Of a DNA stretch of 64,000 bases, positions 6,509 through 62,707 are shown piece by piece; the first letter of the stretch is position 1, and each line of letters opens with the position of its first letter. Source of the DNA: Gammaproteobacteria bacterium (lineage in GTDB: Bacteria > Pseudomonadota > Gammaproteobacteria > Pseudomonadales > Azotimanducaceae); contig JAPPDJ010000048.1 in NCBI GenBank assembly GCA_028824555.1, forward strand, positions 62,001 to 126,000, written 5' to 3'. The notes under the pieces are model-generated. The model saw nothing but the letters and a program-made list of their open reading frames with translations. It did no database searches and had not been told where the DNA came from. The position numbers were made by a program, and so were the translations under genes.

Positions 6509-6610
6509 GGAATGGTTGAACAACCTGGGGCAGCTTGAAGCGACTTCGGATGGCGGTGTGCGGTGCCGTTAACCTGCCTACCCAACACACTAGCCTGCCA
6601 GCCTGCCTAC

Positions 6611-6810
6611 CCCACACACACAATCCAAGCATTCCGTCCCACAGGCCGAACGGTCGATTTCGCACGCTGCTGAACTTGGCTCCTGCCGCCCAATGTCGGC
6701 CATGCGCCGAAGGTCTCCCCCGGGTGGGAAGGACTGACGGGACAATATCAAGCGTGAGACATCGGCCATTGGGGCTGTGGGATGTTTGTGTGTCGGGGAC
6801 CGCTGCATTT
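6611..6810. repeat. Imperfect inverted repeat in a non-coding interval
   Basis: Arms read in opposite directions give near-identical shadow peptides: SSVRHRPLGLWDVCVSG on + and SSVRNRPFGLWDGMLGLCVWG on -. Confidence 0.55.
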
Positions 6811-7190
6811 GTCGCTTCAGCCCTCGCCGTGCCGCGCCAGCATGTCTGCGAGTTCGGGATAGCTGCCACGCTCGCCATCTTGGGACCCGGTCATCGCCAT
6901 GGCAGACAGGAAGGGTGTTGGCATGACGAGCTTATCAAGGGCCATTAAAGGCATTTAGCGTATCACGAAGCATTCATTAACATGCCAATGGATGTCTGCG
7001 CCGACCGTTGGTAATTGGCAGTGGAGCCGGCGAGGCTTGGCACGGGACACGCAGCCGCCTCACTCGTCGGCGGAATCCGGTGTCCTTCGCGATCTGGTCG
7101 AACACGTGCTGGGCGCAACTTGCGGCGAGGGTACAGAGTGCTCCCCAAGCCCGTTTGCTCAGTTTGCGGTCGAACCTTGCGCGGTTCCCA

Positions 7191-7955
7191 TCACGTGTTC
7201 TTTGCGACTTGCCAGGCCTTGGGGTCGAAGCGCTGGCCTGTGACGCCCTTGGAGTCGGGGCCCATCAGATACAGGTACAACGGCATGTGGGACTCCGGGG
7301 TTGGCAGAGTCGCTGGGTCTTCGGTCGGATAGGCCGCTGCGCGCATGGTGGTTCGGGTGCCGCCGGGGTTCAAGGAGTTGACGCGGACGCGGCCGGCGTG
7401 GGCGCATTCGTCCGCCAGCACTTCCATCAGGCCTTCGGTGGCGAACTTGGACACGGCGTAGGCACCCCAGTAGGCGCGGCCACGGCGGCCGACGCCGGAG
7501 GAGGTGAGGATGACGGAGGCGTCCTGTGCTTGGTTCAGCAGCGGCAGCAGGGCGCGGGTGAGCAGGAACGCGGCGTTGACGTTCACCTGCATCACGGCGT
7601 GCCAGTCGGGCGCGGGGTAGTGCTCGATGGGGTTGCGCGGGCCCAGCAGGGAGGCGTTGTGGAGAATGCCGTCGAGGCGTCCGTAGTCGCGCTCGATGCC
7701 TTCGCTGAGAGCGCTTGCGGACTCTTCGCCCAAGTGTTGCAGGTCTGCCGGGACGATGGTGGGGCGGGTTGCGGTTTCCTTCGCGATCTGGTCGAACACG
7801 GCTTCGAGCTTCGCGCGGGTGCGGCCGAGCAGCACCACGTTGGCGCCGTGGCGAGCGTAGGCCAGCGCCGCCGCCCGGCCGATGCCATCGCCAGCACCTG
7901 TGACCAATACGCAACGCTCCGCCAAGAGGTCGTTGGGGGGCGAATAGGCTGTCAT
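7191..7955 (-). CDS. YciK-like SDR-family oxidoreductase
   Basis: MTAYSPPNDLLAERCVLVTGAGDGIGRAAALAYARHGANVVLLGR...SSGVGRRGRAYWGAYAVSKFATEG (TGxxxGIG, YxxxK); adjacent to ubiG. Confidence 0.88.
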   Translation of the reverse strand: MTAYSPPNDLLAERCVLVTGAGDGIGRAAALAYARHGANVVLLGRTRAKLEAVFDQIAKETATRPTIVPADLQHLGEESASALSEGIERDYGRLDGILHNASLLGPRNPIEHYPAPDWHAVMQVNVNAAFLLTRALLPLLNQAQDASVILTSSGVGRRGRAYWGAYAVSKFATEGLMEVLADECAHAGRVRVNSLNPGGTRTTMRAAAYPTEDPATLPTPESHMPLYLYLMGPDSKGVTGQRFDPKAWQVAKNT

Positions 7956-8671
7956 GGCGGCGCTTCGGCGCGCGGCTTCCTGGCGTGCAGGATGTAGTTC
8001 ACGTCCAGGTTGCGGGTGATCCGGCAGCGGCGAGTGAACGGGTTGTATTCCATGCCGGCGATGTCGGCCACGACGAGTCCGGCGTCGCGGCAGGCGCGGG
8101 CCAGTTCCGACGGGCGGATGAGCTTTTCGTAGGAATGCGTGCCCTTGGGCAGCACGTTCAGCACGTACTCTGCGCCGACGATGGCGAACGCCCACGCCTT
8201 GGGCGTTCGGTTGATGGTGGAGAGCACCACGTCGCCGCCGGGTTCGGCGAGCTCGGCCAGGGCCTGCACGGTAGAGGGTGGGTCCGGCACGTGCTCCAGC
8301 ATTTCGAGGCAGGTGACGACGCCGAACTGCCCCGGTCCCTCGGCGAGAAAGGATTCCGGGGTGCTCGCCGTGTAGGTGATCTCGTCGTCGATGCCCCGCT
8401 CCAAGGCATGCAGGCGCGCCACCGCGAGCGGCCTCTCGCCGGCGTCGATGCCCGTGACGGAGGCACCCAGATCATGCAAGGCCTCGGTGACTAGGCCACC
8501 GCCGCAGCCCACGTCCAGCACCTTCCGCCCAGCGACCTGGCAGCGCGACTTGAGGTAATCGACGCGCGGGCCCTGGATGTCGTGCAGGGCGCGGAACTCG
8601 CCGTCGGTGTCCCACCAGCGGTGGGCGAGGGCCTCGAAGCGGGCAATCTCTTCTTGATCGGCGTTGATCAC
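7952..8671 (-). CDS. ubiG: 3-demethylubiquinol 3-O-methyltransferase (UbiG)
   Basis: MINADQEEIARFEALAHRWWDTDGEFRALHDIQGPRVDYL...GRKVLDVGCGGGLVTEALHDLGASVTGID. Confidence 0.93.
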   Translation of the reverse strand: MINADQEEIARFEALAHRWWDTDGEFRALHDIQGPRVDYLKSRCQVAGRKVLDVGCGGGLVTEALHDLGASVTGIDAGERPLAVARLHALERGIDDEITYTASTPESFLAEGPGQFGVVTCLEMLEHVPDPPSTVQALAELAEPGGDVVLSTINRTPKAWAFAIVGAEYVLNVLPKGTHSYEKLIRPSELARACRDAGLVVADIAGMEYNPFTRRCRITRNLDVNYILHARKPRAEAPP

Positions 8672-8680
8672 GGCAGGTCC

Positions 8681-10021
8681 TTACGCATCGCGGCCCATCC
8701 GACCCTGCCAGATTCCGGCGCGGTGTCGCAGCTCGTCGATGTCGATGGTTGGATAGCTGCCGTTCTCGTAACGGCATTCCCCGGCTACGTAGGCGTGGCT
8801 CACGCGGCTGCCGGCTGCGGTGTGGACGAGCTGCGCCGGCACGTCGTGCAGGGGTTGCATGGCGGGATGGTCCACGTCCACGGCGATGAAGTCTGCCTGC
8901 TTTCCGACTTCGAGCGAGCCTATGCGATCGGCCATGCCAAGAGCACGGGCGCCGCCCAACGTCGCCATTTCCAACGCTTCGGCGGCTGGCAGTGCCGTCG
9001 GGTCGCCGGTGGCAAGTTTGGCCAGCAAGGTCGCCATGCGGGCTTCGTGAAACAGGTCCAGGCCGTTGTTGGAGGCTGCGCCGTCTGTCCCGAGTGCCAC
9101 GTTGACGCCCGCTTCCCGGAACGACGGCACCGGGCAGATGCCGCTCGCTAGCTTGGTGTTGGACATGGGGCAGTGGATCACGCTGGCGCCGCATTCGGCG
9201 ATCATGGCGATCTCCAAGTCGGAAACTGCAGTCATGTGGACGGCCTGCAGGTTCTCCGTGAGCAGCCTTGCTTTTTCGAGGGTTTCGATGGGGCTCTGTC
9301 CGAGGCTGCGGCGCGCTTCGGCAACCTCGCCCTTGGTCTCGTGCAGGTGAATGTGTACGGCGGCGTCGAGTTCGTCGGCGAGCATGGCAATTCTTCGGAG
9401 CGCCGCTTCACCAGCGGTCCCTGTCGAATGCGGGCCGAAGCAGACGTCGACAAGCGGATCGGAGCGGCGTTCGTCGCGCAGTTTCAACCCTCGCTCAAAG
9501 CACTCGTCCAGGTTCTGCGACCAGGCGTTGGGGTGATTGATGATCGGGAAGGTCACCTGCATTCGGCAGCCGATTTGAGCGAGTTCTGCCACCGTCTCCG
9601 GGAAGTAGTACATGTCGCTGCCGGTGGTGGTGCCGCTTGCCAGCATCTCCGCCATCCCCAAGAGGGTACCGTCGGCAACGAAGTCCTCGTCCACCCAGCG
9701 GCCCTCCAAGGGCCAGATGGTTTCCTGAAGCCACGCCTCCAGGGATTGGCCTTCGCCCAGGCCGCGCAGCAGAGTCATCGCGAGATGGCCGTGGGCGTTG
9801 ACGAGGCCCGGCAGGAGCACGTGGTGGGGCAGGTTCCGGTGGGTTGCGCCCGGGTGTCGGGCCAGGACTCCACCGCGCTCGCCCATGTCGATGATGGTGT
9901 CGCCTGCGACAGCGATTGCGGCATCGTGGAGGACGACATTGTCCGGAGCGATCGGCAGCATGTGCTCTGCCGAGACCACGAGGTCGGCGTTACGGGCTGC
10001 GGACGGGGTTGCCGCGCTCAT
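8681..10021 (-). CDS. TRZ/ATZ-family amidohydrolase (5-methylthioadenosine/SAH deaminase-like)
   Basis: LPGLVNAHGHLAMTLLRGLGEGQSLEAWLQETIWPLE...HIHLHET...VNVALGTDGAASNN; start trimmed to ATG at 10021. Confidence 0.88.
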   Translation of the reverse strand: MSAATPSAARNADLVVSAEHMLPIAPDNVVLHDAAIAVAGDTIIDMGERGGVLARHPGATHRNLPHHVLLPGLVNAHGHLAMTLLRGLGEGQSLEAWLQETIWPLEGRWVDEDFVADGTLLGMAEMLASGTTTGSDMYYFPETVAELAQIGCRMQVTFPIINHPNAWSQNLDECFERGLKLRDERRSDPLVDVCFGPHSTGTAGEAALRRIAMLADELDAAVHIHLHETKGEVAEARRSLGQSPIETLEKARLLTENLQAVHMTAVSDLEIAMIAECGASVIHCPMSNTKLASGICPVPSFREAGVNVALGTDGAASNNGLDLFHEARMATLLAKLATGDPTALPAAEALEMATLGGARALGMADRIGSLEVGKQADFIAVDVDHPAMQPLHDVPAQLVHTAAGSRVSHAYVAGECRYENGSYPTIDIDELRHRAGIWQGRMGRDA

Positions 10022-10425
10022 GGGCAGCGCCGACCATAGGCCATGAACTCGAGCAAGTTGCCGTCGGGATCGCGTACATAGACGCTCGTTCCGGTCACTT
10101 TTCCGCCATTGCGACCGCCTTCGCGGGGTGCCGGCCCTTCGATGATTTCGATTTTGAGGTTCCGCAGGTGCCGGTCGATGCTCTCCACCGTTCCCTGCCA
10201 GACGAAGCAGAAGTCGCCGCAGCCGGGACGAGCCGACGGGCCGCGCAAAGTGAACCGTTCGTCGTTCCAAAGCTCGGGCGCGTGGAAGTTGATGCGGTTG
10301 TCGCCGAAGTGGATCGAATGGAGTCGCCCGCCGCGGCGCACGCCGAAGCCAAGCGCCTCATAGAACGCCAGCATCTCCTCAACGTTGGCAATGGGGATGG
10401 CAACGTGATCGAGACTGGCGATCAT
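10018..10425 (-). CDS. VOC/glyoxalase-family protein
   Basis: MIASLDHVAIPIANVEEMLAFYEALGFGV...TSVYVRDPDGNLLEFMAYG. Confidence 0.85.
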   Translation of the reverse strand: MIASLDHVAIPIANVEEMLAFYEALGFGVRRGGRLHSIHFGDNRINFHAPELWNDERFTLRGPSARPGCGDFCFVWQGTVESIDRHLRNLKIEIIEGPAPREGGRNGGKVTGTSVYVRDPDGNLLEFMAYGRRCP

Positions 10426-10494
10426 GGGTACGCTGGCAAGCGACCGATCCGGCAGCATGCCTCGATAGCGGATTGCTTGCGCACCTGACGGTGC

Positions 10495-10590
10495 GATGGA
10501 GGGCGGGACGCCCTCCGTCCGGAAGGGCCCTTCGCGTGCGAGGACCGGCTGCGCGCCTTCGGAGGGAGGGCGTCCCGCCCTCCATCCCAT
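10495..10590. repeat. Intergenic palindrome pair (GGAGGGcGGGACGCCCTCC family)
   Basis: gatggagggcgggacgccctcc...ggagggagggcgtcccgccctccatc; both halves are themselves palindromic. Confidence 0.8.
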
Positions 10591-10651
10591 CCGCGAGGGC
10601 ACGCCTCACGGGTTCGTAGTTGGAAAGCTGCCATCGCCATGGAAGGGGCCG

Positions 10652-11638
10652 TCACGCGACCCTCATTCCGCGCAGCTTCATGCCGGCGGCGCGGTAGCAG
10701 TTGTCGATCAGGCGCATTTGCTTGACGCCGTCCTCGGCGTCGGTCTCGAGCTTGGTGCCGTTCTTTACCGCGTCCACGAAGGCATCGAGCTGGAACTCGT
10801 AGGTGGGGCGCAGCGTGAGCTCCTCGTTCTTGGTGCCGGCGTCGGTGACGAGTTCGATGTTGTGCCCCATGTGCGGCACCAGAGGATTGCGCACGTTGAG
10901 CTTGCCGCGGGTGCCGGTGACGTTGAGGTAGGCCTCGAACGGTTGCCCCGCCTTCATGATGCCGGACGTGCGCCCCCGTGCGCCGCTGGGGAACAGGAGC
11001 TCCGGTTGCAGCAGGATGTCCACGTCCGGTGGCCCTTCCTCCGCCTTGGCAGACACCACTTCCGGCTCCTCGCCGGTGAAATGCCGCACCCACGAGAGCG
11101 GATAGCAGCCCATGTCCATCGTCGCGCCGCCGCCGGTGCCGTAGATCATGCGAATGTCGCCCGGGCGAGGCGAGCCGATGTTGAAGGCGCCTTCGAGCTC
11201 GACGAGTTCCCCGATGGCACCGTCGTGGTAGAGCTCCAAGGCGCGCTGGAACACCGGGTGGTAGCGATAGTGGAACGCCTCGATCAGCACGAGGCCCGTC
11301 TCGTGCGCCACGTCTGCCATCTCCCGCGCCTCGGCCTCGTTGCACGCGAACGATTTCTCGCAGAGGACGTGCTTGCCCGCCCGCAGCGCCTTGATGGTGT
11401 ATTCGCGATGGTGGCTGATGGGCAGCGGGTTGTAGACGGCATCCACGTCCGGGTGCGTCACCACCTCGTCGTAGCTGTCCACCACCTCGTCGATGCCCCA
11501 AGCCTCGGCGAACTCCTCCGCCCGCGAGCGGTCTCGCGCGGCAACGACGGTGACGCGCACCTCGTCGTTGTTGGCGGCGGGCTTGGTGAGTGCGTTCGGG
11601 GAGATGGCGGCAGCGCCGAGCGTTCCGATTCGAATCAT
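10652..11638 (-). CDS. Gfo/Idh/MocA-family oxidoreductase
   Basis: MIRIGTLGAAAISPNALTKPA...VDAVYNPLPISHHREYTIKALRAGKHVLCEKSFACN. Confidence 0.88.
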   Translation of the reverse strand: MIRIGTLGAAAISPNALTKPAANNDEVRVTVVAARDRSRAEEFAEAWGIDEVVDSYDEVVTHPDVDAVYNPLPISHHREYTIKALRAGKHVLCEKSFACNEAEAREMADVAHETGLVLIEAFHYRYHPVFQRALELYHDGAIGELVELEGAFNIGSPRPGDIRMIYGTGGGATMDMGCYPLSWVRHFTGEEPEVVSAKAEEGPPDVDILLQPELLFPSGARGRTSGIMKAGQPFEAYLNVTGTRGKLNVRNPLVPHMGHNIELVTDAGTKNEELTLRPTYEFQLDAFVDAVKNGTKLETDAEDGVKQMRLIDNCYRAAGMKLRGMRVA

Positions 11639-11690
11639 GGTGGTTGGCCTGATGGCGGAGTGGACGGGTTGGCAGCAATTGTAAGAGCAT

Positions 11691-11769
11691 GCGCGCCCTT
11701 CGGGCGCGTTGGCAGTTCGCTGCGCGAACGCGCGCCCTGTCGGGCGCGTTGGCAGTTCGCTGCGCGAAC
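11691..11769. repeat. Tandem duplication of an approximately 39-bp unit
   Basis: gcgcgcccttcgggcgcgttggcagttcgctgcgcgaac followed by gcgcgccctgtcgggcgcgttggcagttcgctgcgcgaac. Confidence 0.85.
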
Positions 11770-11836
11770 TGCTGGCCTTTCCAGGGGCCATCCGACGCAC
11801 ACTCACTCTTGGCGGGACCTTAGGCCCCTCGTCGGG

Positions 11837-12106
11837 TTAGAGATCGAGTTCCAGTTCCGGCGTGCGCGAGCCGGCGCAGCAAATGAGCACCCGGCCTGCC
11901 GCCTGCTCGTCCTCGCTCAGCACGAAGTCGCGGTGTTCGGGGGTGCCGGACAGCACGCTTTGCTCGCAGGCGCCGCAGATGCCGACGCCGCACGCGTAAG
12001 GCACTTCGATCCCGGCCGTCAGCAGCGAGTAGAGAATGGAGCCACCGGCAGGGACCGTCACGGCGGTCTCGCTGCGCGCCAGCTTGACGACGAACTCCTC
12101 GTTCAC
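11837..12106 (-). CDS. Stand-alone [2Fe-2S] ferredoxin
   Basis: YACGVGICGACEQSVLSGTPEHRDFVLSEDEQAAGRVLICCAGS: CxxxxCxxC...C plant-type 2Fe-2S motif as in phthalate dioxygenase reductase C-termini. Confidence 0.88.
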   Translation of the reverse strand: MNEEFVVKLARSETAVTVPAGGSILYSLLTAGIEVPYACGVGICGACEQSVLSGTPEHRDFVLSEDEQAAGRVLICCAGSRTPELELDL

Positions 12107-12141
12107 AGGTGTGCTCTTCCTATGACCTTGGCCGAAAGCCC

Positions 12142-13227
12142 TCAGGCGGTCTTCAGCTTCGGCTCGACAAGGCCGAGCTCGATCATCGTCTCACCAGTCT
12201 CGCGCAAGGTGTCTTCGATGGCGTGGGTTTCGAGCCCCAACTCGCCTCGCGCCTTGTCGCAATGCGCCCTTGGCGCGTCGTAGGGAGCCCCGTATTTCTC
12301 CACCATCGCCTCGTATTCCGGCAGCACGCCGCCGACGTCGATGTGCGGGAACAGCGCCTGCAGGTGGTCGTGCAGTTGCATGGCGGTGATCTCGCCGGAA
12401 TCGTCCGTGGCGCAGAGCATGTAGCGGGAGCCGTTGCCGCACACTTCGCTCTCGATCATCAACACCTCGGACTCGCCCACGTCGCGCACATCGACGATGT
12501 TCCAAAGCGCCTGCCAGCCGCGCCCGCACGGCTTGCCGGCCAGCATTCGCCCCAGGAAGAACTGCCACGAGCCGCGCAATTCATGCACCGGACTCAAGAG
12601 CGGCCCGAGCACCACACACGGGCAGACGGAGATGGCATCGAAGCGGCCATCCTCCTCGGCGAGCCGCGTCACCAGCCGCTCGCACTCCACCTTCGCCATG
12701 GAGTAGCCGACTTCGCCCTTCTCGACCAGATTGTCGGTGTTCCAGTTGGCGTCTTCGTCGCGGTTGTCGCTGGCCCAGTCGTCCTCCGTGTAGCGATGCC
12801 CGGGCGGCGAGGGATGGCCGATGGCGGCGAAGGAGCTCGTGTAGATGAGCCGCTTCACGGTGCCGGCCCGCTTCACCGAACCGATGATGTTGTGCACGCC
12901 GCCGATCGCTCCGTCATACACCTGCTGCGGATTGTTGGCACCCCCATAGCCCATGGGCGTCCCCACATGCAGCACCGCGCTGCAATCCCGAAACGGCGCG
13001 TCGTATGAGCCTTCCTCGAGCAGATTGGCCTGATGCAGCGAGACGTTGCCCGGATGCTGGTCGTTCAACGCGAGCAGGAACTCCGTCTTGTCTTGGTTCG
13101 ATGTGTCGGTGACGCAGGCACGAACGTCGTAGCCACGCTTCATGAGCGCAATGACGGTGTGTGCACCGATGTAGCCGGAAGCGCCGGTGACGGCGACCGG
13201 GCCGTCGGATGCAGCGACAGAAGGCAT
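12142..13227 (-). CDS. NAD-dependent epimerase/dehydratase (dihydroflavonol-reductase-like)
   Basis: MPSVAASDGPVAVTGASGYIGAHTVIALMKRGYDVRACV...VGYSMAKVECERL. Confidence 0.85.
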   Translation of the reverse strand: MPSVAASDGPVAVTGASGYIGAHTVIALMKRGYDVRACVTDTSNQDKTEFLLALNDQHPGNVSLHQANLLEEGSYDAPFRDCSAVLHVGTPMGYGGANNPQQVYDGAIGGVHNIIGSVKRAGTVKRLIYTSSFAAIGHPSPPGHRYTEDDWASDNRDEDANWNTDNLVEKGEVGYSMAKVECERLVTRLAEEDGRFDAISVCPCVVLGPLLSPVHELRGSWQFFLGRMLAGKPCGRGWQALWNIVDVRDVGESEVLMIESEVCGNGSRYMLCATDDSGEITAMQLHDHLQALFPHIDVGGVLPEYEAMVEKYGAPYDAPRAHCDKARGELGLETHAIEDTLRETGETMIELGLVEPKLKTA

Positions 13228-13296
13228 ATGGGGAGTCTCCTGGGAGTCGTGGTTGCTGTCGGCGCGCCCCTGAGGGCGCGCTTGTATAGTAATCGG

Positions 13297-14325
13297 ATGA
13301 GCAACAAGACGCCGGGGTTCGTGACGATGGAACGGGACGAGTGGCTCGCGCAGGTGGACGAGGAGGTGATCGAGCCGGAGTTGCCGATCTGCGATCCACA
13401 CCACCACCTTTGGGATCATCCCGGCAGTCGCTACCTGCTCGATGAGCTGCTCGCCGACATCGGCAGCGGCCACAACGTGGTCTCGACGGTATTCATGGAG
13501 TGCGCCTCCATGTACCGCGCCGACGGCCCCGAAGCCATGAAGCCGGTGGCGGAAACGGAGTTCGTCAACGGCATCGCGGCGATGAGCGCGTCGGGCGGCT
13601 ATGGCGATGCGAGAGCCTGCGCCAGCATCGTGGGCTTTGCGGACTTGAACTTGGGCTCAGCAGTTGGCGACGTGCTCGACGCCCACGACCACGTCACGGA
13701 CCGCTTCTCCGGCATCCGCCACGCCGCCGGCTGGGACACGAGCGACGATGTTCGCAACTCGCACACCGCTCCCACCGAAGGGATGCTGGCCACGCCCAAG
13801 TTCCGCGAGGGCTTCGCCGAGCTCGGCAAGCGCGGGATGACGTTCGACGCGTGGCTCTACCATCCGCAGATCGCGGAAGTCACCGACCTCGCCCGGGCAT
13901 TCCCCGAACAGCCGATCATCTTTGACCACTTCGGCGGCCCGCTTGGCATCGGCCCGTACGAAGGCAAGCAAGCAGAGATCTTCGCCCAGTGGAAGCAGGA
14001 CGTGGCGGAACTGGCAACCTGCGAAAACGTCGTCGCCAAGCTCGGGGGCCTCGTCATGGCCATCAACGGCTTCGGCTTCCACAAGCGCGAACGCCCGGCC
14101 ACGTCGGACGAACTCGTGGCCGCCACTCGCGACTACCACCTGCACATGATCGACTGCTTCGGCGCAGACCGCTGCATGTTCGAAAGCAACTTCCCGGTGG
14201 ACAAGGTGAGCTGCAGCTACCGCGTGCTGTGGAACTCGTTCAAGAAAATCGCGGCCGGGTGCTCGGATACAGAAAAGGCGGCGCTCTTCCACGACACCGC
14301 GGCACGCACGTACTTGCTCCGCTAA
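13297..14325 (+). CDS. Amidohydrolase-family (TIM-barrel) metal-dependent hydrolase
   Basis: ICDPHHHLWDHPGSRYLLDELLADI...IIFDHFGGPLG...FGADRCMFESNFPVDK. Confidence 0.88.
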   Translation: MSNKTPGFVTMERDEWLAQVDEEVIEPELPICDPHHHLWDHPGSRYLLDELLADIGSGHNVVSTVFMECASMYRADGPEAMKPVAETEFVNGIAAMSASGGYGDARACASIVGFADLNLGSAVGDVLDAHDHVTDRFSGIRHAAGWDTSDDVRNSHTAPTEGMLATPKFREGFAELGKRGMTFDAWLYHPQIAEVTDLARAFPEQPIIFDHFGGPLGIGPYEGKQAEIFAQWKQDVAELATCENVVAKLGGLVMAINGFGFHKRERPATSDELVAATRDYHLHMIDCFGADRCMFESNFPVDKVSCSYRVLWNSFKKIAAGCSDTEKAALFHDTAARTYLLR

Positions 14326-14344
14326 GCAGCCAACGGAGATCGAG

Positions 14345-15256
14345 ATGAAGGCCGATCCAGCTTCCGCCGAAGAAGTCGAAATCTACGGCGACACGTTTGC
14401 CGTGCCGGGCCTCGCGTCATGGCTCGCGGATGTGGAGGAGCAGGGCTTTGTGGTGGTGCCCGACTGGCTTGATGCGGAACGTGTGGAACGCTTGGGCACA
14501 GAACTCAGGCGCGACGTCAATCCCATCCGAGAGCTGATGGGAGACGGCCACACCGTGCGCGCCCACAACCTGCTCGCCAAGACCCGTTGCGTGGATGACT
14601 TGGTCTGCGACCCACGCCTGCTGGCCTTGGCGCAGGGCGTACTCGGCTACCAGATCCAAGTCTCCGTCGTGGTCATGTTCGACCTGTTGCCGGGCGCCAA
14701 GGCGCAGGGGCTGCATCAGGACGACGGCCTGTGGCCCGTGCCCCGGCCCCATCCGCCGTTCGTGCTAAACGCCGTCATCGCCGTGGAGGACTTCACCAAG
14801 GCCAACGGGGCCACCATGCTGGTGCCGGGCTCGCACAAGTGGCACGACCAACCCGTGCGCCAACCGCCGGACGTCGAGCCCGTCCAGATGGAGATGAAGG
14901 CCGGCTCCCTGCTTGCCTGGACAGGCGCCATGTGGCACAGCGGCGGCGCCAACACCACAACCGACCAAAGCCGCCTGGCCGTGGACATCAACTTCAACCT
15001 CGCATACCTGCGCCAACAGGAGAATCAGTACGTCGGCGTCCCCTGGGAGGAAGTGGCGAAGATGCCGAAGCGCCTCCAACGGGTACTCGGCTACCAGCCA
15101 GGATTGTCCGTCGCAGGCCCGGGCATGGTGGACCTACGCGATCCCCTCGACATGCTGGGCCGAGTGTCCTTCGGCTACGACATCAACGCCCCGGACATGC
15201 CGCCTCTGGCACCACCGAACCCGCCACCCTTTCGGGCCGGAAGTGCCCGCAACTAG
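14345..15256 (+). CDS. Phytanoyl-CoA dioxygenase (PhyH)-family protein
   Basis: GLHQDDGLWPVPRPHPPFVLNAVIAVEDFTKANGATMLVPGSHKW...GSLLAWTGAMWHSGGANTT: HxD...H Fe(II)-binding pattern. Confidence 0.88.
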   Translation: MKADPASAEEVEIYGDTFAVPGLASWLADVEEQGFVVVPDWLDAERVERLGTELRRDVNPIRELMGDGHTVRAHNLLAKTRCVDDLVCDPRLLALAQGVLGYQIQVSVVVMFDLLPGAKAQGLHQDDGLWPVPRPHPPFVLNAVIAVEDFTKANGATMLVPGSHKWHDQPVRQPPDVEPVQMEMKAGSLLAWTGAMWHSGGANTTTDQSRLAVDINFNLAYLRQQENQYVGVPWEEVAKMPKRLQRVLGYQPGLSVAGPGMVDLRDPLDMLGRVSFGYDINAPDMPPLAPPNPPPFRAGSARN

Positions 15257-23146: not shown

Positions 23147-24199
23147 ATGAAACACTTGGGCTTTGTCGCATTGTTCGCCGCCTTTGTCGCGCTTGCTGGG
23201 GCGAGTGTCGCCTATGCGCTTTCGGTGTCGATGCTCGGTGGTGCAGTGGCGGGCATCGTCCTTGGCTCCCTGCCGGGTTGGCTGCCTCGGCTCGTCGGCT
23301 CGGTGGCAGCAAGGCGGTGTGCGGAAATCGTCGCCTACCTCGCGCTTGTGGTGGTTGCGGTGGCGGTTTCCGTGAGTGGAATGCTGCCGGCGTTGGGCGA
23401 TGCGCCGGTGCGGATAGAGCCGTCGATTCCGTTGCTGGTGATGGCGCCGGCGTTGTATGCGGCCTATCTCGTGCTCGACCGGCGCAGGGGTGCCGAAAGC
23501 GGCGAGTCGGTGCCGGATCGGCTGTCGGCCGCACTTGTCGGGCCGCCGCTGGTGCTGACGTTGGCGCTTGCCACGGCGGTGGCAACCGGAGCCGTGCTGC
23601 TCATCGACTACATCGGCTTGAATTCGGAGAAATGGTCATATCTTGCAGCTAAGTTCGTCGATCGTGGCGTTATCCCTCCAATAACACTCATTTTGTTCTT
23701 CTGGGGGCTGCTGCTCTTGGCATACAAGGGCTGGGTGCTTTGGCGGGAACAACAGATGTTGGCGGCCGGGCGTGTGGAGTCCGTCCTGTTGGGCGCACAT
23801 CGGGATGCAGTGGATTCGAGCGGCGGCAACGCAACCGATGCCGACGCGTTCCTCGACATCGTCTGGAAGCAATCGGCCGATTTCTATGTGGTCCCGCGCT
23901 ACATCAACTGGGCGATTCCCATTCTTGGCTTCATCGGCACGGTGCTCGGTATCTCGCTGGCAGCCGATGGCATCCAGAGCATTGTCGGCGCCAAGACCAG
24001 TCTCGGCGACCTTTCGACGGAACTCGGCCAAGCCATCGCGCCCCTCGGCATCGCCTTCGACACCACCTTGATCGCGCTGTCCCTGAGCGTGTTTCTCACC
24101 CTCCTGCAAACCGCCCTGCAACGCTGGGAAGACGGCGTGCTGGTGGATTTCGAAACCCGCGTTCGCGCCGTTCCGGCCAACCAAACCGACGGGGATTAG
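23147..24199 (+). CDS. MotA/TolQ/ExbB-family proton-channel protein with extra N-terminal TM segments
   Basis: INWAIPILGFIGTVLGISLAADGI...LGQAIAPLGIAFDTTLIALSLSVFLTLLQTALQRWEDGVL: TolQ/ExbB TM2-TM3 signature; about 7 hydrophobic segments by eye. Confidence 0.85.
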   Translation: MKHLGFVALFAAFVALAGASVAYALSVSMLGGAVAGIVLGSLPGWLPRLVGSVAARRCAEIVAYLALVVVAVAVSVSGMLPALGDAPVRIEPSIPLLVMAPALYAAYLVLDRRRGAESGESVPDRLSAALVGPPLVLTLALATAVATGAVLLIDYIGLNSEKWSYLAAKFVDRGVIPPITLILFFWGLLLLAYKGWVLWREQQMLAAGRVESVLLGAHRDAVDSSGGNATDADAFLDIVWKQSADFYVVPRYINWAIPILGFIGTVLGISLAADGIQSIVGAKTSLGDLSTELGQAIAPLGIAFDTTLIALSLSVFLTLLQTALQRWEDGVLVDFETRVRAVPANQTDGD

Positions 24200-24712
24200 G
24201 TGGCCAGACACGGCCGGGGCCGGGAGCAGGACGGCAGCGGCACGCCGATGGTGGAGATCTTCGGCGGCATCTTTGCGCTTCTGTTGGTGCTCTTTCTGAT
24301 CATGAATCTGATGACCCAAGCCTCCTTGGTGGAACGGCTGGAGGCCGCCAAGGACGAGGGGCTGCATCGGGTTGGCTGGGGCGCGAGCGGCGCCGGGTTC
24401 GTCGTGCTCGCGTTTCCGCAGGAACTTCGCATCGTTGAGACCGGCGAGGTGGTCCGTGCAGGTGAAATCTGCCGCGCCGGCAGCCCCTTCACGCGCTACA
24501 CCCGGCGCATCTATCAGGCCGAGAAACAGCAGCTCATCTTCGCCATCCTGAGCGGCGGCGTTGGCACCATGGCCGAGGCGCGCAACTGCATCATGCGCGT
24601 GCTGCCGGATCGCGTGCTGTCCATCGGCTGGATCATCGCCAACGACGAACTGCTGAAATCCGTGGCGCTCGGCGACATTCCGGCGTTCGTGCAGGAGGCG
24701 GTGGCGCCGTGA
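24200..24712 (+). CDS. Single-TM protein with ExbD/MotB-like anchor (Glu variant)
   Basis: GTPMVEIFGGIFALLLVLFLIMNLMTQASLV resembles ExbD TPFIDVMLVLLIIFMV; GTG start immediately after the channel stop codon. Confidence 0.6.
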   Translation: MARHGRGREQDGSGTPMVEIFGGIFALLLVLFLIMNLMTQASLVERLEAAKDEGLHRVGWGASGAGFVVLAFPQELRIVETGEVVRAGEICRAGSPFTRYTRRIYQAEKQQLIFAILSGGVGTMAEARNCIMRVLPDRVLSIGWIIANDELLKSVALGDIPAFVQEAVAP

Positions 24713-26442
24713 CCACCACCGTTGCCGAGGCGCGGGCGGAACGGCGGCACCGGCCGGGCCTCTTGCCATCCTTCGCTGGCGTGGCCCTCGCCGACATCCT
24801 CGCCAACAGCGTCGCCATCGTCATCATCATGATTGTGGTGACCTTGATGACTCGCTACGAGGAGGAGCGCGACAAGCTGGAGCAAGCCGAGGACGTCTCC
24901 GTGCTGCTGAGCCGCGAGATCGCGAGCTCCTTCGTCATGAACGCGCTGCCCACATCGCCCCCGGCGCAGCTACACGATTACGTCACCTCGCCCCTCGACC
25001 GCAATCCCCAACACGCCACCATGCCCATCATCGAGCTGCATGGCGACTTTGTGCGCGATGGCTACACGGGGCGCATCTACGGCCGCGACGAGCTGCTGCT
25101 GCAAGACAACGAGCTCGATCACTATCTCGCCTCCCTGGCGCCGGAACAGCTTGTCGCGACCCGCGTCGATGTTTACGGGATCGACCAGTTCTACATCGCC
25201 ATGTCGATCTTTCGCAAACACGGCCTGTCGCCGCTGCACTGGCACTTCCTTGACGGCGGCGAGGCTGGTCGCGAACCAGGGCCCAAGCTGCCCTGGGCAC
25301 GCGAGACTCCACCTCCCGGGCGCGAGCTGCAGAGCCAAGAGCCGGGGCCAACCGGCGCCGGCGGCGCGCTGCACTCGCTGCCGAGCGATGTTGCACTACT
25401 GCGCCATGGTGCCTTCGATGCCAACTACCCCACCGACTCGCTGCGTGGCGGTTTCGGCAGCACCGCCGCACGCGCCGGTTCGTTGGATCAGCACCTCGAC
25501 CTTCCCCGAGGTTTCCTAGAGCGGGGCGGCAGGGCGGAGCCGAACCCCGCCCCCAGCGCCGGCGATTCCGCAAGCGCCCTGGAGTCGAACGCCATGCGAT
25601 TCCGCACCGCCTGGCCAAGCACCAGCGACGACGCTCGCGAGGACGACGCCGATTTCGACCTCTTCATCCTGGTGCGGGGGTTGCTCGCGTATCTGGCAGG
25701 CGTACAGCAAACCGCCGACGCCAACCTCCCGTCGCCGCTGCCGGACTTCGACCTGCGCCGCGATGTGCTCGATGTCGTGCCGGAACTGCCGCCGCCCGAG
25801 CCTGCCCTCGCCGAGCTCATCGTGCGCCTGACGAGGCTCATCGCCACCCCGCAGACGCCAGAGGACTCCTCGCTCAGGGTGATCGCGGAGATGATCCCAG
25901 ACGGGCAGCCCCAGCACGTGACGCTGTTCCCGAACGAACCACTCGCCCGCGTGCGATGGCGGCGCAGCGCCACGGACGCTCAAGCGGCATTCCCGCGCGA
26001 CGACGCCCCCGCGTACGCCACCGTCAGCCTGCGGCTGGGCCTGCATGCAGAAATCCACGAGGGGCTGCGGGTGGAGCTTGCTCGCAACGTCATCGTGCTG
26101 ATGCCGCCGCCGGAAACCGTCCCGGAGACTGAACCGCGCTGGCGCGTCGTGACGCTGGTAAATCCCGAACGCAACGACTTCCTTACCGGATTCCTGTTCG
26201 CCTCCGTCAACGAAGTGGGCGGGCTTGTCTTGCCCGCGGACGAAAACGCACTCGCCATCGACGGGCTTCGCATGGAATCGCAGATCCCCGGCGTCGCCTT
26301 TCGCCAGGAATTCCGGCAGCTTTTGCTCTATCTGCTGGTCGTGCTCGCCGTCGTCCTGCTGTTCTTCGCCGGTGTGCCGCTTGGCAAACGCGCCTTGGCC
26401 GGCGCTGCCAGCAACGCGACGGCGGACGCTCCAACGCGCTAG
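24709..26442 (+). CDS. Large two-TM envelope protein with MotB-like Asp-containing N-terminal anchor
   Basis: LPSFAGVALADILANSVAIVIIMIVVTLMTRYEEERDKLEQAED...; C-terminal TM LLLYLLVVLAVVLLFFAGVPLGKR; start overlaps previous stop. Confidence 0.6.
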   Translation: MTTTVAEARAERRHRPGLLPSFAGVALADILANSVAIVIIMIVVTLMTRYEEERDKLEQAEDVSVLLSREIASSFVMNALPTSPPAQLHDYVTSPLDRNPQHATMPIIELHGDFVRDGYTGRIYGRDELLLQDNELDHYLASLAPEQLVATRVDVYGIDQFYIAMSIFRKHGLSPLHWHFLDGGEAGREPGPKLPWARETPPPGRELQSQEPGPTGAGGALHSLPSDVALLRHGAFDANYPTDSLRGGFGSTAARAGSLDQHLDLPRGFLERGGRAEPNPAPSAGDSASALESNAMRFRTAWPSTSDDAREDDADFDLFILVRGLLAYLAGVQQTADANLPSPLPDFDLRRDVLDVVPELPPPEPALAELIVRLTRLIATPQTPEDSSLRVIAEMIPDGQPQHVTLFPNEPLARVRWRRSATDAQAAFPRDDAPAYATVSLRLGLHAEIHEGLRVELARNVIVLMPPPETVPETEPRWRVVTLVNPERNDFLTGFLFASVNEVGGLVLPADENALAIDGLRMESQIPGVAFRQEFRQLLLYLLVVLAVVLLFFAGVPLGKRALAGAASNATADAPTR

Positions 26443-26458
26443 CCGTAGCGGCGAGCGA

Positions 26459-28102
26459 ATGCCAACACAAAGGCCAGGAGCCCGCGCCGTTCTTGCCGCG
26501 CTACCTGCTCGCAGGGCGTTCCGGAGCCTTGCGCCGTGGGCCATCGCCGTGGCAGCACTTTGCTCCCTCGTCGCGCTCGTCAAGCTCTACCCGCTGTGGC
26601 TGGCTTACGACACGTCCCTGGTCACGATCACCGGCACGAGGGACGACGACTCGCCGGGTGCCAGGTTCGACGCCGTCCTGCTCCGCCACCTCGACCATTT
26701 CGCATATCTGCGCTCGTTCGACCATGTGTTGGCTGCGGGCCCACGCACATTGCGCCTGACGGCGCCGCTCTGGCTTGATCGTTGCGAAGTGCGGCAAGGG
26801 GATTTCTACAAGTTCGCCGGCTGGGCGCCGTTCGAGCCACAGGCCGCCGCACGCGCCGCCGCGCCAGGTCAACCGCCCAACTGGCGACACTTCAGCGAAA
26901 GCCGAGACCACACCATCAGCGGACGCCTGGACGCGCCAGCGACCGGAATCACATGGTGGGATGCAGCGGCCTATTGCCGCGCCGCCGGCGGTCGTCTGCC
27001 GACGGCTTCGGAGTGGGTGGCTGCAACGGCCGGCGAGCAGCCCCGGCTGTATCCGTCGGGTGATGTCATGGAGTCGGACGCTTGGCCCTATCTCGATCCG
27101 CTCCTGAACGCCGCGCAGAAGTGCGGCCTGCACCCCAGCACCGACACACCCCAAGGGCTGTCAGACATGGCGCACGGCGTCTCGGAATGGGCTGTGGGCG
27201 ACCTCGCAGATGGCCCGGCAGTGATGGGCGGCAACGGCTACAACGCCCCCCGCGAACTCTACAGCCTGGCGGCGCTGCATCGCCGGGCGCCGATGGACCA
27301 TCGTTCTCCATATCTGGGATTTCGCTGCGCCTACGACCACGAACCGATGCCCACGCCGTGGCGAACGCAGACAGGCGCGAGGCAGTTGCCGCCGGGCATC
27401 TATCAAGTGGGCATCCCGGCCAGGGCGCGCGTCCCAAGCCTTCTCTCGGCGCTGCCTCGGCAGCAAGTACCCCTCATCGGCCGCATTCTCTCGACGGATG
27501 CAAGCACGGGCGCGCAACCAACCCTGCACCTGATGACGCGAGAGGTCACCCGCCGCCAATACGCCAGATTCCTCCGCGACCCGTTCGTGCTTGCTGGATT
27601 CCACGCCGAAGCCAACCAACCCGCATCCCACAGCCATCGTCCGCCCGATTGGCGGGAGCAAATGCAGGAACCAGACCTGCCCGTGGTGAATGTCGATTGG
27701 TGGTCCGCCTACGCCTTCGCCTCCTGGGCCGGAGGCCGCCTGCCCACAGCCTTGGAGTGGGAACGCGCCGCCTCGGGCCAAGGCGCGCGCATCTACCCTT
27801 GGGGCGACGACTTCACCGCCGCCAATCCTGTAACGGGCGAGCAAGCACTGCGCGGTCCCCAACTGCCAAGCGAAGAGTCGGGCGACCAAACCCCCGAGGG
27901 CCTCCTGAACATGGGCGGCAATGTCTCCGAATGGACCCGCAGCGTATCCGGCGCCTCCGGCAGCTTCGCCATCGTCGTCAAGGGCGGCAACTACCTCCTC
28001 CCCGGCCCCACCACGGCCCGAATCGACCACCGCAACCACCTCTCACCGCATTACCGCTCCCCCACGCTAGGCTTCCGGGTGGCATTCGACCGCCCTCGCT
28101 AA
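26459..28102 (+). CDS. Membrane-anchored protein with two FGE-sulfatase/SUMF1-fold domains
   Basis: N-terminal TM APWAIAVAALCSLVALVKLYPLWL; ITWWDAAAYCRAAGGRLPTASEW...SPYLGFRCAYD and VNVDWWSAYAFASWAGGRLPTALEWERAASG...NMGGNVSEWT...SPTLGFRVAFD. Confidence 0.85.
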   Translation: MPTQRPGARAVLAALPARRAFRSLAPWAIAVAALCSLVALVKLYPLWLAYDTSLVTITGTRDDDSPGARFDAVLLRHLDHFAYLRSFDHVLAAGPRTLRLTAPLWLDRCEVRQGDFYKFAGWAPFEPQAAARAAAPGQPPNWRHFSESRDHTISGRLDAPATGITWWDAAAYCRAAGGRLPTASEWVAATAGEQPRLYPSGDVMESDAWPYLDPLLNAAQKCGLHPSTDTPQGLSDMAHGVSEWAVGDLADGPAVMGGNGYNAPRELYSLAALHRRAPMDHRSPYLGFRCAYDHEPMPTPWRTQTGARQLPPGIYQVGIPARARVPSLLSALPRQQVPLIGRILSTDASTGAQPTLHLMTREVTRRQYARFLRDPFVLAGFHAEANQPASHSHRPPDWREQMQEPDLPVVNVDWWSAYAFASWAGGRLPTALEWERAASGQGARIYPWGDDFTAANPVTGEQALRGPQLPSEESGDQTPEGLLNMGGNVSEWTRSVSGASGSFAIVVKGGNYLLPGPTTARIDHRNHLSPHYRSPTLGFRVAFDRPR

Positions 28103-60652: not shown

Positions 60653-62707
60653 ATGAACCACCTTGCCGGCGAGACCAGCCCGTATCTTGCGCAACATGCC
60701 GACAATCCGGTCGATTGGCACCCTTGGGGCGAACCGGCACTCGCTCTCGCCCGCACCGAGGGCCGTCCCATCCTCCTCTCCATCGGCTACTCCGCGTGTC
60801 ATTGGTGCCATGTGATGGCACACGAGTCCTTCGAGCACGAGGCGACGGCGAAGGTGATGAACGAGCGCTTCGTCAACATCAAGGTGGATCGGGAGGAACG
60901 GCCCGATCTCGACCGCGCCTATCAACTCGCACACCACCTGCTCACGCGCCAGAGTGGCGGCTGGCCCCTCACCGCCTTCCTCGATCCAGAGACGTTGCTG
61001 CCGTTCTTCACCGGCACCTACTTCCCGCGCACGCCCCGCCACGGCCTGCCTGGCTTCGTTGATGTGCTGATCCGCATCTCGGACGCCTGGGGCGAGCGCA
61101 CCGAGGACATCCGCGAACAGGGCGACAAGCTGCGCGACATCGTGCAGCAGCTCGACGACGCCAAGGCGGAATCGAAACTGGCCGACGCTGCGCTGCTCCG
61201 GGCGGGGCGAGAGCAGCTAGGCAAGCTCTATGACCCAGACGGCGGCGGCTTCGGCAACGCGCCCAAGTTCCCCATGCCGGGGGCGGTGGAACGGCTGCTG
61301 CGACACTGGCAGCGCGGTCGCGCAAGCGGCGGCCAGCCCGATCGCGAAGCCCTCGACATGGTGATGACCACCCTGACGAAAATGGCGCGAGGCGGCATCT
61401 TCGACCACCTCGGCGGTGGCTTCTGCCGCTATTCCACCGACCGCGAGTGGATGATTCCGCACTTCGAGAAGATGCTCTGCGACAACGGCTCGCTGCTCGC
61501 GCTCTATGCGGACGCCATGGCAGTGGCGCCCGATGCGCTGTTCGAGGGAGCGCTCGGCGACACGGCCGGCTGGATGATGCGCGAGATGCAGCACCCGAGC
61601 GGCGGCTACTACGCCGCCCTCGATGCCGACAGCGACGGCGGCGAGGGCCGGCATTACGTTTGGCGACGGCATGAGGTGAAGCGGCTCCTCACCGAGGACG
61701 AATACCTGGTGGTGGAAACTCTCTACGGCCTCGACCGCCCGGCCAATTTCGAGGGCAAGTGGCACCTGCACCGGCGCGACTCGTGGCGTTCGGTGGCGGA
61801 GCGGCTGTATCTCGATGCCGAAGCCGCCGCCCTACTCTTGGCGAGCGCCCGCGCCAAGCTGTTCGACCACCGCAGCGAGCGACCCCGACCCGCCCGCGAC
61901 GAGAAAGTGCTTGCGGCGTGGAATGGCCTCGCGATTCACGGCATGGTGCAGGCGGCTTTGCGGCTCTCGGAACCGGCGTGGATCGACTCGGCCGCAACGG
62001 CCGCAGCCTTCGTGCGCGAACGCATGGTGCAGGACGAACGCCTGATGGCGAGCTGGACCGGCGGCACGGCAAGGCACCCCGCCTACCTCGACGACTACGC
62101 CAACATGCTGCGCGGCGTGCTGGCGCTCTTGGAAGCACGCTGGGACGATGCCGACTTCGCCTTCGCCCGGCTGCTGGCGGACGGCTTGCTGACGCTCTTC
62201 CTGGATGAGGAGGCGGGCGGTTTCTGGTTCACGGCACACGACCACGAGGAACTCATCCACCGCCCGAAGCCCGTGCTGGACGACGCCCTGCCACCAGGCA
62301 ATGCCATCGCCGTGCGCGCACTCGTGGCCTTCGGGCATCTCACCGCAGAGTCGCGCTACCTCGACGCGGCGCACGCAACCCTCGACTGGGCCCGAGGTTT
62401 CGCAGAACGCCAGCCAGCGGCCCACTCGGCCTTGCTAACCGCCACCGAAGAAGCCACCGAACCCGGCGAAACGGTGATCCTGCGGGGCCCGTCGAACTTG
62501 ATCCAGCCCTGGCTAGAAGCTGCAAGAGACGGCTACCAGCCCACGAGAAGGGTTTACGCCATCCCCTACGACAGCCAAGCGCCGTCGTACCTACCCCGCC
62601 TCGTCACCGCAGAAGCCCGGGCACGAGTAACGGCGTTTGTGTGCCGCGACCTCGTGTGCTCCCCCCCGATCGGCGAACTCGACGACTTCCCGAGCGCCTT
62701 GACGTAG
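60653..62707 (+). CDS. Thioredoxin-domain protein (DUF255, YyaL/SPATA20-like)
   Basis: [87 protein letters not shown]. Confidence 0.95.

Follow-up and report, generated by a model that had tools for sequence, protein, structure and literature searches.

A conserved four-gene operon of Gammaproteobacteria combining a MotA/TolQ/ExbB-family channel with a tandem FGE-fold protein: a candidate ion-driven envelope motor

Background

What would an ion channel of the MotA/TolQ/ExbB type do in an operon whose last gene encodes two domains of the formylglycine-generating enzyme (FGE) fold? This question is raised by four genes, here referred to as A, B, C and D, at positions 23147-28102 of the window, i.e. 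the 64,000-nucleotide stretch that we analysed (positions 62,001 to 126,000 of contig JAPPDJ010000048.1, assembly GCA_028824555.1). The window originates from a 4.2 Mb draft genome (182 contigs) of a member of the Azotimanducaceae, and its nearest named relatives are the gammaproteobacterial metagenome-assembled genomes SB0662_bin_60 and SB0665_bin_27 and an "uncultured Pseudomonadales bacterium". In the motors known so far, five A-type subunits enclose two helices contributed by the B-type subunit; the passage of ions makes one rotate relative to the other (PMC9389320).

We report that A-B-C-D constitutes a conserved and, apparently, to date undescribed four-gene motor-like module. On balance, we consider it probable that the module encodes an ion-driven inner-membrane motor of the 5:2 class (MotAB/ExbBD/TolQR), which powers a periplasmic FGE-fold hub. 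A comparable part list is so far known only from the gliding/secretion machine of the Bacteroidota; no description of a gene set with both FGE and ExbB was found in the literature searched, and a 2025 survey of MotAB homologues mentions neither formylglycine nor sulfatase.

Results

Organisation and conservation of the module

The four genes are all located on the + strand with intergenic gaps of 0, -4 and +16 bp, and the open reading frame (ORF) list agrees with the operon as outlined in a first-pass annotation made from the sequence alone. Gene A (23147-24199) encodes a MotA/TolQ/ExbB-like channel of 350 amino acids (aa), as judged from its ORF, hydropathy, hhalign comparisons and the Pfam MotA_ExbB matches of its orthologues. 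Genes B (24200-24712; 170 aa) and C (24709-26442; 577 aa) were delineated using ORFs, AlphaFold2 (AF2) models and orthologue alignments, and D (26459-28102; 547 aa), with an N-terminal transmembrane (TM) anchor and two FGE-fold domains, using Pfam FGE-sulfatase and PDB profile matches. Hydropathy predicts approximately eight hydrophobic segments in A. For B and D it predicts a single one, N-terminal in both, and for C two, located at opposite ends of the protein.

Searches of relatives, of the order and of the class identified the module in 28 genomes, including that of the window, which represent nine genera and six families of Gammaproteobacteria. The first-pass annotation held that an absence of conserved linkage would speak against its proposal. 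This was looked for, and the contiguous A-B-C-D order is kept in 21 loci of five families (including the window) with mostly overlapping or short gaps; two of these have one gene trimmed by a contig end (A in L052, D in L071). Since the same order and strand recur in 20 further loci of five families, the linkage exceeds chance. Six additional copies lack whole genes at contig ends, and one of them represents the sixth family. The module is split in G012, where A alone is present near 654 kb (L041) and B-C-D near 152 kb (L075), roughly 500 kb apart. The relocated A is nevertheless an intact and conserved ORF, in line with a requirement for A as a partner. A CoA-transferase-like gene is positioned directly behind this relocated A.

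Of the 16 genomes of its own genus, 15 carry the module in complete or partial form. Outside a few genera it is rare (5/368 class genomes and 8/391 order genomes); C gave no match among 398 phylum genomes, and the module was not found on the plasmids and phages searched. The dN/dS ratios between close relatives are 0.09-0.23 for A, 0.05-0.10 for B, 0.10-0.21 for C and 0.12-0.13 for D, i.e. all four genes are under purifying selection. Moreover, the pairwise identities correlate (0.91-0.96) across all pairs of the four genes; A, B, C and D are co-inherited under selection.

Gene A belongs to a separate channel subfamily

The A protein carries four extra N-terminal TM segments followed by a MotA-like four-TM core. 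The window protein scores below the Pfam MotA_ExbB cut-off of 22.9 bits (8.9 bits, and 16.0 in another search), and the orthologues in G054 (27.1) and G193 (25.8) score above it, which makes the family membership secure. Six residues, P258, T265, P299, D305, T306 and T307, are invariant in 16/16 orthologues and include the threonines and prolines conserved in the last two TM segments of the channel family (P258, T265, T306 and T307). They are located in the channel motif PILGFIGTVLGIS (residues 258-270; 23918-23956, +; P258 and T265) and in the motif of the last TM segment, PLGIAFDTTLIAL (residues 299-311; 24041-24079, +; D305, T306 and T307). Judged by its sequence, A is thus a true MotA/TolQ/ExbB-family channel, as first proposed, and forms a subfamily of its own.

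Using hhalign, A aligned with the ExbB-like channel of a second cluster described below ("cluster 2"; probability 99.25%, E 5.8e-20) and with an ExbB-like channel encoded on cyanobacterial plasmids (99.05%, E 2e-18), compared to 54.8% (E 1e-4) for TolQ/ExbB of related genomes. In phylogenetic trees, which were midpoint rooted, had MotA on a long branch and left out ZorA and AglR, the channels of A, cluster 2, cyanobacteria and Rhizobium split from TolQ/ExbB, and from Escherichia coli MotA where included, with 99-100% bootstrap. The sequence data therefore place the cluster-2 channel and the cyanobacterial plasmid channels as the closest kin of A, and both appear alongside two unlike single-TM proteins. 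Sequence searches of the PDB yielded no usable match for A, B or C. The suggestion that the weaker second A-like match in each genome is TolQ was rejected, as this locus holds a different FGE cluster.

Gene D encodes a non-catalytic tandem FGE-fold protein

D matches Pfam FGE-sulfatase in two stretches (E = 2.1e-54), in keeping with the TM-anchored protein with two FGE-fold domains originally noted. Domain 1 spans approximately residues 107-292 (26777-27334, +; profile search and alignment) and domain 2 approximately residues 355-542 (27521-28084, +; Pfam and profile search). A profile built from 14 orthologues matches the PDB structures of human SUMF1/SUMF2, bacterial FGE, EgtB, PorK/GldK and TvpA; the match to NCBIfam GldK (E 4.1e-05) is below cut-off. 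No Cys counterpart of the catalytic pair of FGE (the MCHRSYC stretch in human) is present in either domain among the 14 orthologues, which supports the prediction, also made in the first-pass annotation, that both domains are non-catalytic. Domain 1 has four conserved Cys residues (109, 173, 222 and 290), and C109 and C222 are jointly lost in L072. This joint loss suggests disulfides 109-222 and 173-290 and hence that D is probably periplasmic. It is also possible that D senses a ligand.

Genes B and C encode putative axle subunits

In the AF2 models (pLDDT 69.5 for B and 62.9 for C, neither confident overall), B has a TM helix with E19 (residues 17-38; 24248-24313, +; also seen in hydropathy and alignment) followed by a small beta-beta-beta-alpha-beta-alpha-beta domain. 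The N-terminal TM segment of C (24769-24858, +; alignment and hydropathy) carries the motif FAGVALADILAN and is prolonged as a long helix, after which follow a highly conserved domain with the same order of strands and helices (residues 107-180; 25027-25248, +; alignment and model), a disordered region, then the second domain and lastly a C-terminal TM helix (residues 530-571; 26296-26421, +; hydropathy and model). The models thus predict an ExbD/TolR-like topology and order of secondary structure for both proteins. The aspartate D29 of C (codon 24793-24795), at the beginning of the N-terminal TM segment and in the motif LADILAN/LVDILAN, is invariant in 15/15 orthologues, as is N33. The cysteines C91 and C130 of B are invariant and would suit a periplasmic disulfide.

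A fold search with B gave the TolR periplasmic domain (5by4) the top target-normalised TM-score, 0.46, among the matches listed, with a non-significant E value. Compared by hhalign with the TM proteins of the cyanobacterial cassettes described below, B and C stayed under 10% probability. A position-specific scoring matrix of the ExbD/TolR TM segment put the B family near the top, though without exceeding unrelated TM segments, and was not used as evidence of homology. Hence, of the "MotB/ExbD-like" label initially given to B and C, the topology and the TM aspartate of C stand and detectable sequence homology does not; ExbD homology is not established.

Related channels next to two unlike TM proteins

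The window genome harbours a second FGE + ExbB-like cluster (G000:C149, locus L057, ~6556-14862, -; identified by locus reading, and also seen in L053, L056, L026 and L028-L031). Besides a TPR protein, it encodes a protein in which four PEGA repeats are combined with an FGE domain (Pfam 4.1e-44), an ExbB-like channel (Pfam 7.6e-14) and a pair of TM-coiled-coil-VWA proteins that carry the TM-aspartate motifs SFLDVMSCGFGAV and SFLDVICCGFGAI; one further protein looks actin/Hsp70-like, without a Pfam match. Cluster 2 resembles A-B-C-D in having an FGE protein, a related channel and a pair of dissimilar TM proteins bearing a TM aspartate. It differs in that VWA replaces the B/C domains and in its PEGA repeats, TPR protein and the additional actin/Hsp70-like-looking protein. 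A motif scan detected the FGE signature just upstream of the cluster-2 channel in seven genomes (the window genome, G046, G048, G047, G033, G024 and G054), and most genomes of the family have the channel itself, which is much more widespread there than A. Given two clusters of different sequence in one genome, the combination of FGE, an ExbB-like channel and two unlike TM-aspartate proteins occurs twice, and we count this recurrence and the kinship of the channels in favour of a motor. Among the papers searched none described a PEGA-FGE + ExbB-like + VWA cluster.

The nearest plasmid matches of A are loci of Microcystis (L119, 6620-9220) and Anabaena (plasmid pANACY.03; L120, 6530-9109). These cassettes encode an ExbB-like channel extended by a long ZorA-like tail, together with two dissimilar single-TM proteins (153 and 231-236 aa), the shorter of which shows a sub-threshold Pfam ExbD match (0.0036) and an hhalign probability of 63% to ExbD/TolR. 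They adjoin a type III-B Cmr CRISPR system with CARF-HEPN, viperin and an N-6 methylase/helicase, and the subfamily of A therefore has members in defence islands; the cassette is possibly an uncharacterised defence motor. No paper on this three-gene cassette was found.

Two other loci encode an ExbB-like channel together with a TM-aspartate partner. In G015, a genome of the same genus without A-B-C-D, a third channel type is present with the partner motif IDLFASGMGVFILMALLFMVFF (L054, 8893-10835). The Rhizobium leguminosarum plasmid pRlBT01d, which is unannotated, carries an A-clade channel with the partner motif SVLDLFASALGGFIMIAIILF (L121, 6605-8215), near protein-kinase-like and phosphatase-like ORFs.

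Neighbouring genes

The flanks of A-B-C-D are mostly metabolic. Flank comparison revealed no fixed fifth gene, the adjoining genes varying between families, and no sensor kinase or regulator linked across families. In one genus (g8; L050, 166-1419 and 6586-7587; L051, L085 and L086) a serine/threonine kinase gene lies upstream of the module, and D is followed, in this genus only, by a gene for a TPR protein that weakly matches TonB_C (E 0.0095). In part of the genus of the window genome a glycosyltransferase-sulfotransferase fusion and/or a second sulfotransferase gene lies upstream of A (L044, 6667-9332; L039, 10333-12297; L040, 2515-4374; L046, 10830-13693; L047, 6233-7087). In G193, two DNA methyltransferases and one more gene form a restriction-modification-like cluster directly upstream of A (L072, 11423-14546).

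Discussion

We infer a complex of 5:2 stoichiometry in which A would form a pentameric ring around the N-terminal TM helices of B and C, one of each or alternating. These would constitute a two-stranded axle, an unlike pair in place of a homodimer, with ion binding on D29 of C. Ions would pass by this residue and T265/T307 of A, and their flow would turn or tilt the B/C axle. This motion would reach D by way of the small periplasmic domains of both axle proteins and the second domain of C. Anchored in the inner membrane, D could dock an envelope, cell-wall or outer-membrane partner through its FGE-fold domains. Candidate loads are a surface glycan, an outer-membrane protein or envelope upkeep, and we favour an envelope or surface function over defence.

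Several findings weigh against such a motor. B and C have no Pfam match, their hhalign probability to ExbD/TolR is below 6%, and fold searches with their AF2 models, which lack overall confidence, returned nothing at E <= 0.001. Moreover, E19 of B is present in 10/15 orthologues and replaced by Ala in 5/15, so that only C has an invariant TM acid. Finally, the flanks compared contain no gene for an outer-membrane or cell-wall partner that accompanies the module across families.

Among described systems, GldK/PorK of the type IX secretion/gliding motor comes closest as a precedent, since here a non-catalytic FGE fold is driven by a proton motor (PMC12421860, PMC12635249); neither this precedent nor cluster 2 was recognised in the first-pass annotation. 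Specifically, PorKN/GldKN has the FGE fold without the catalytic Cys and acts as a docking hub driven by PorLM/GldLM (PMC12421860), and disulfides connect GldK with outer-membrane clients (PMC12635249). Like GldKLMN/PorKLMN, the module combines an inner-membrane motor gene set with an FGE-fold protein devoid of the Cys pair. However, A is an ExbB-family channel, while GldL lacks conclusive sequence homology to that family (PMC9389320); GldK is a lipoprotein with D being TM-anchored and having two FGE domains; and the hosts belong to different phyla. GldL, GldM, GldN, Sov and GldJ are absent from the module, and the whole genome was not searched for GldL/GldM/GldN/Sov. A-B-C-D may thus work like the PorKLMN motor-hub, by analogy and not as a demonstrated member of that system.

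TolQR/ExbBD shares with the module the channel family and, as predicted for B and C, the topology of an N-terminal TM segment followed by a small alpha/beta periplasmic domain, but A is positioned outside the TolQ/ExbB clade, and B and C are not detectably homologous to ExbD/TolR. No TolA/TolB/Pal or TonB gene is present in the operon or conserved beside it. As for the AglRQS motor set of Myxococcus, we know of no FGE protein in it. Its gene content, one MotA/TolQ-like protein with two MotB/TolR-like partners, fits that of the module, but AglQ and AglS are both predicted to have a TM aspartate (PMC9389320), which in the module is invariant only in C.

Among other explanations, A might be a signalling channel, its ion flow gated by D upon binding of a ligand (e.g. 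a sulfated glycan) with no mechanical work involved. FGE-type folds double as ligand-binding scaffolds, and the D profile matches the Treponema variable protein TvpA; yet in architecture and invariant residues A conforms to the force-generating family, and regulators or sensor kinases do not accompany the module across families. We consider this unlikely. Equally improbable, in our view, is a machine for the synthesis, sulfation or transport of a surface glycan, in which D would be an adaptor or guide the glycan: the fusion directly upstream of A and the adjoining second sulfotransferase in part of the genus would fit, but sulfotransferase genes are not found beside the module in the window, in other genera or in other families.

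Zorya consists of ZorA with a long cytoplasmic tail, ZorB and either ZorC/D or ZorE. The module shares with ZorAB a MotA-like channel with a putative MotB-like partner, and as a Zorya-like anti-phage system its motor would sense a phage breach of the envelope, with D or a distant effector acting. The best PADLOC match of A is indeed ZorA (E = 0.0059; weak and limited to the core), and relatives of A reside in the cyanobacterial defence islands. However, A lacks the long ZorA tail, B-D have no PADLOC match, no ZorB-type partner was detected by profile, and no ZorC/D/E-like gene is present in the module or among the leading matches of its neighbours, in agreement with the earlier view that the locus is not obviously of the Tol, Exb (Ton), Mot or Zorya type. 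Only 3/120 flanking proteins match leading PADLOC families; all three are DNA methyltransferases, a single restriction-modification-like cluster of one genome accounting for two of them, and the flanks are otherwise metabolic for the most part. The presence in 15/16 genomes of the genus, and on none of the plasmids and phages searched, is also unlike the typical patchy distribution of defence genes. The defence role that had been suggested is thus not supported by gene neighbourhoods, and we regard a Zorya-like function as doubtful, slightly more so than the two preceding explanations. Least of all do we expect D to be an active FGE- or EgtB-type oxidase next to an unrelated energised channel (A-C): its FGE-sulfatase and EgtB profile matches are strong, but both domains lack the catalytic Cys pair in 14/14 orthologues, and D reaches 77 bits against an EgtB cut-off of 360, in the FGE-fold part only.

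Returning to the ion-driven motor with an FGE-fold hub, a fuller version can be put forward tentatively, as possible rather than probable. A-B-C-D might be an undescribed gammaproteobacterial rotary envelope machine, in which a tandem FGE-fold hub is rotated by an asymmetric axle of two different subunits; as such it would correspond to the gliding/secretion motor of the Bacteroidota. It might also belong to a broader class of ExbB-like motors, each having two unlike axle proteins, of which the PEGA-FGE-VWA cluster and the cyanobacterial cassettes would be further branches.

To our knowledge, few ion-driven 5:2 motors have a known load. The module would be a compact motor with its load-side protein encoded alongside, and in another phylum the fold of that protein has been shown to serve as a hub driven by a motor. 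Comprising only four genes, with clear invariant residues (D29 of C, T265/T307 of A and the cysteines of D), the module is small enough for reconstitution. If our reading is true, ion motors became coupled to a non-catalytic FGE fold outside the Bacteroidota too, whether by separate origin or by spread, and motors with two unlike axle proteins would be a recurring design.

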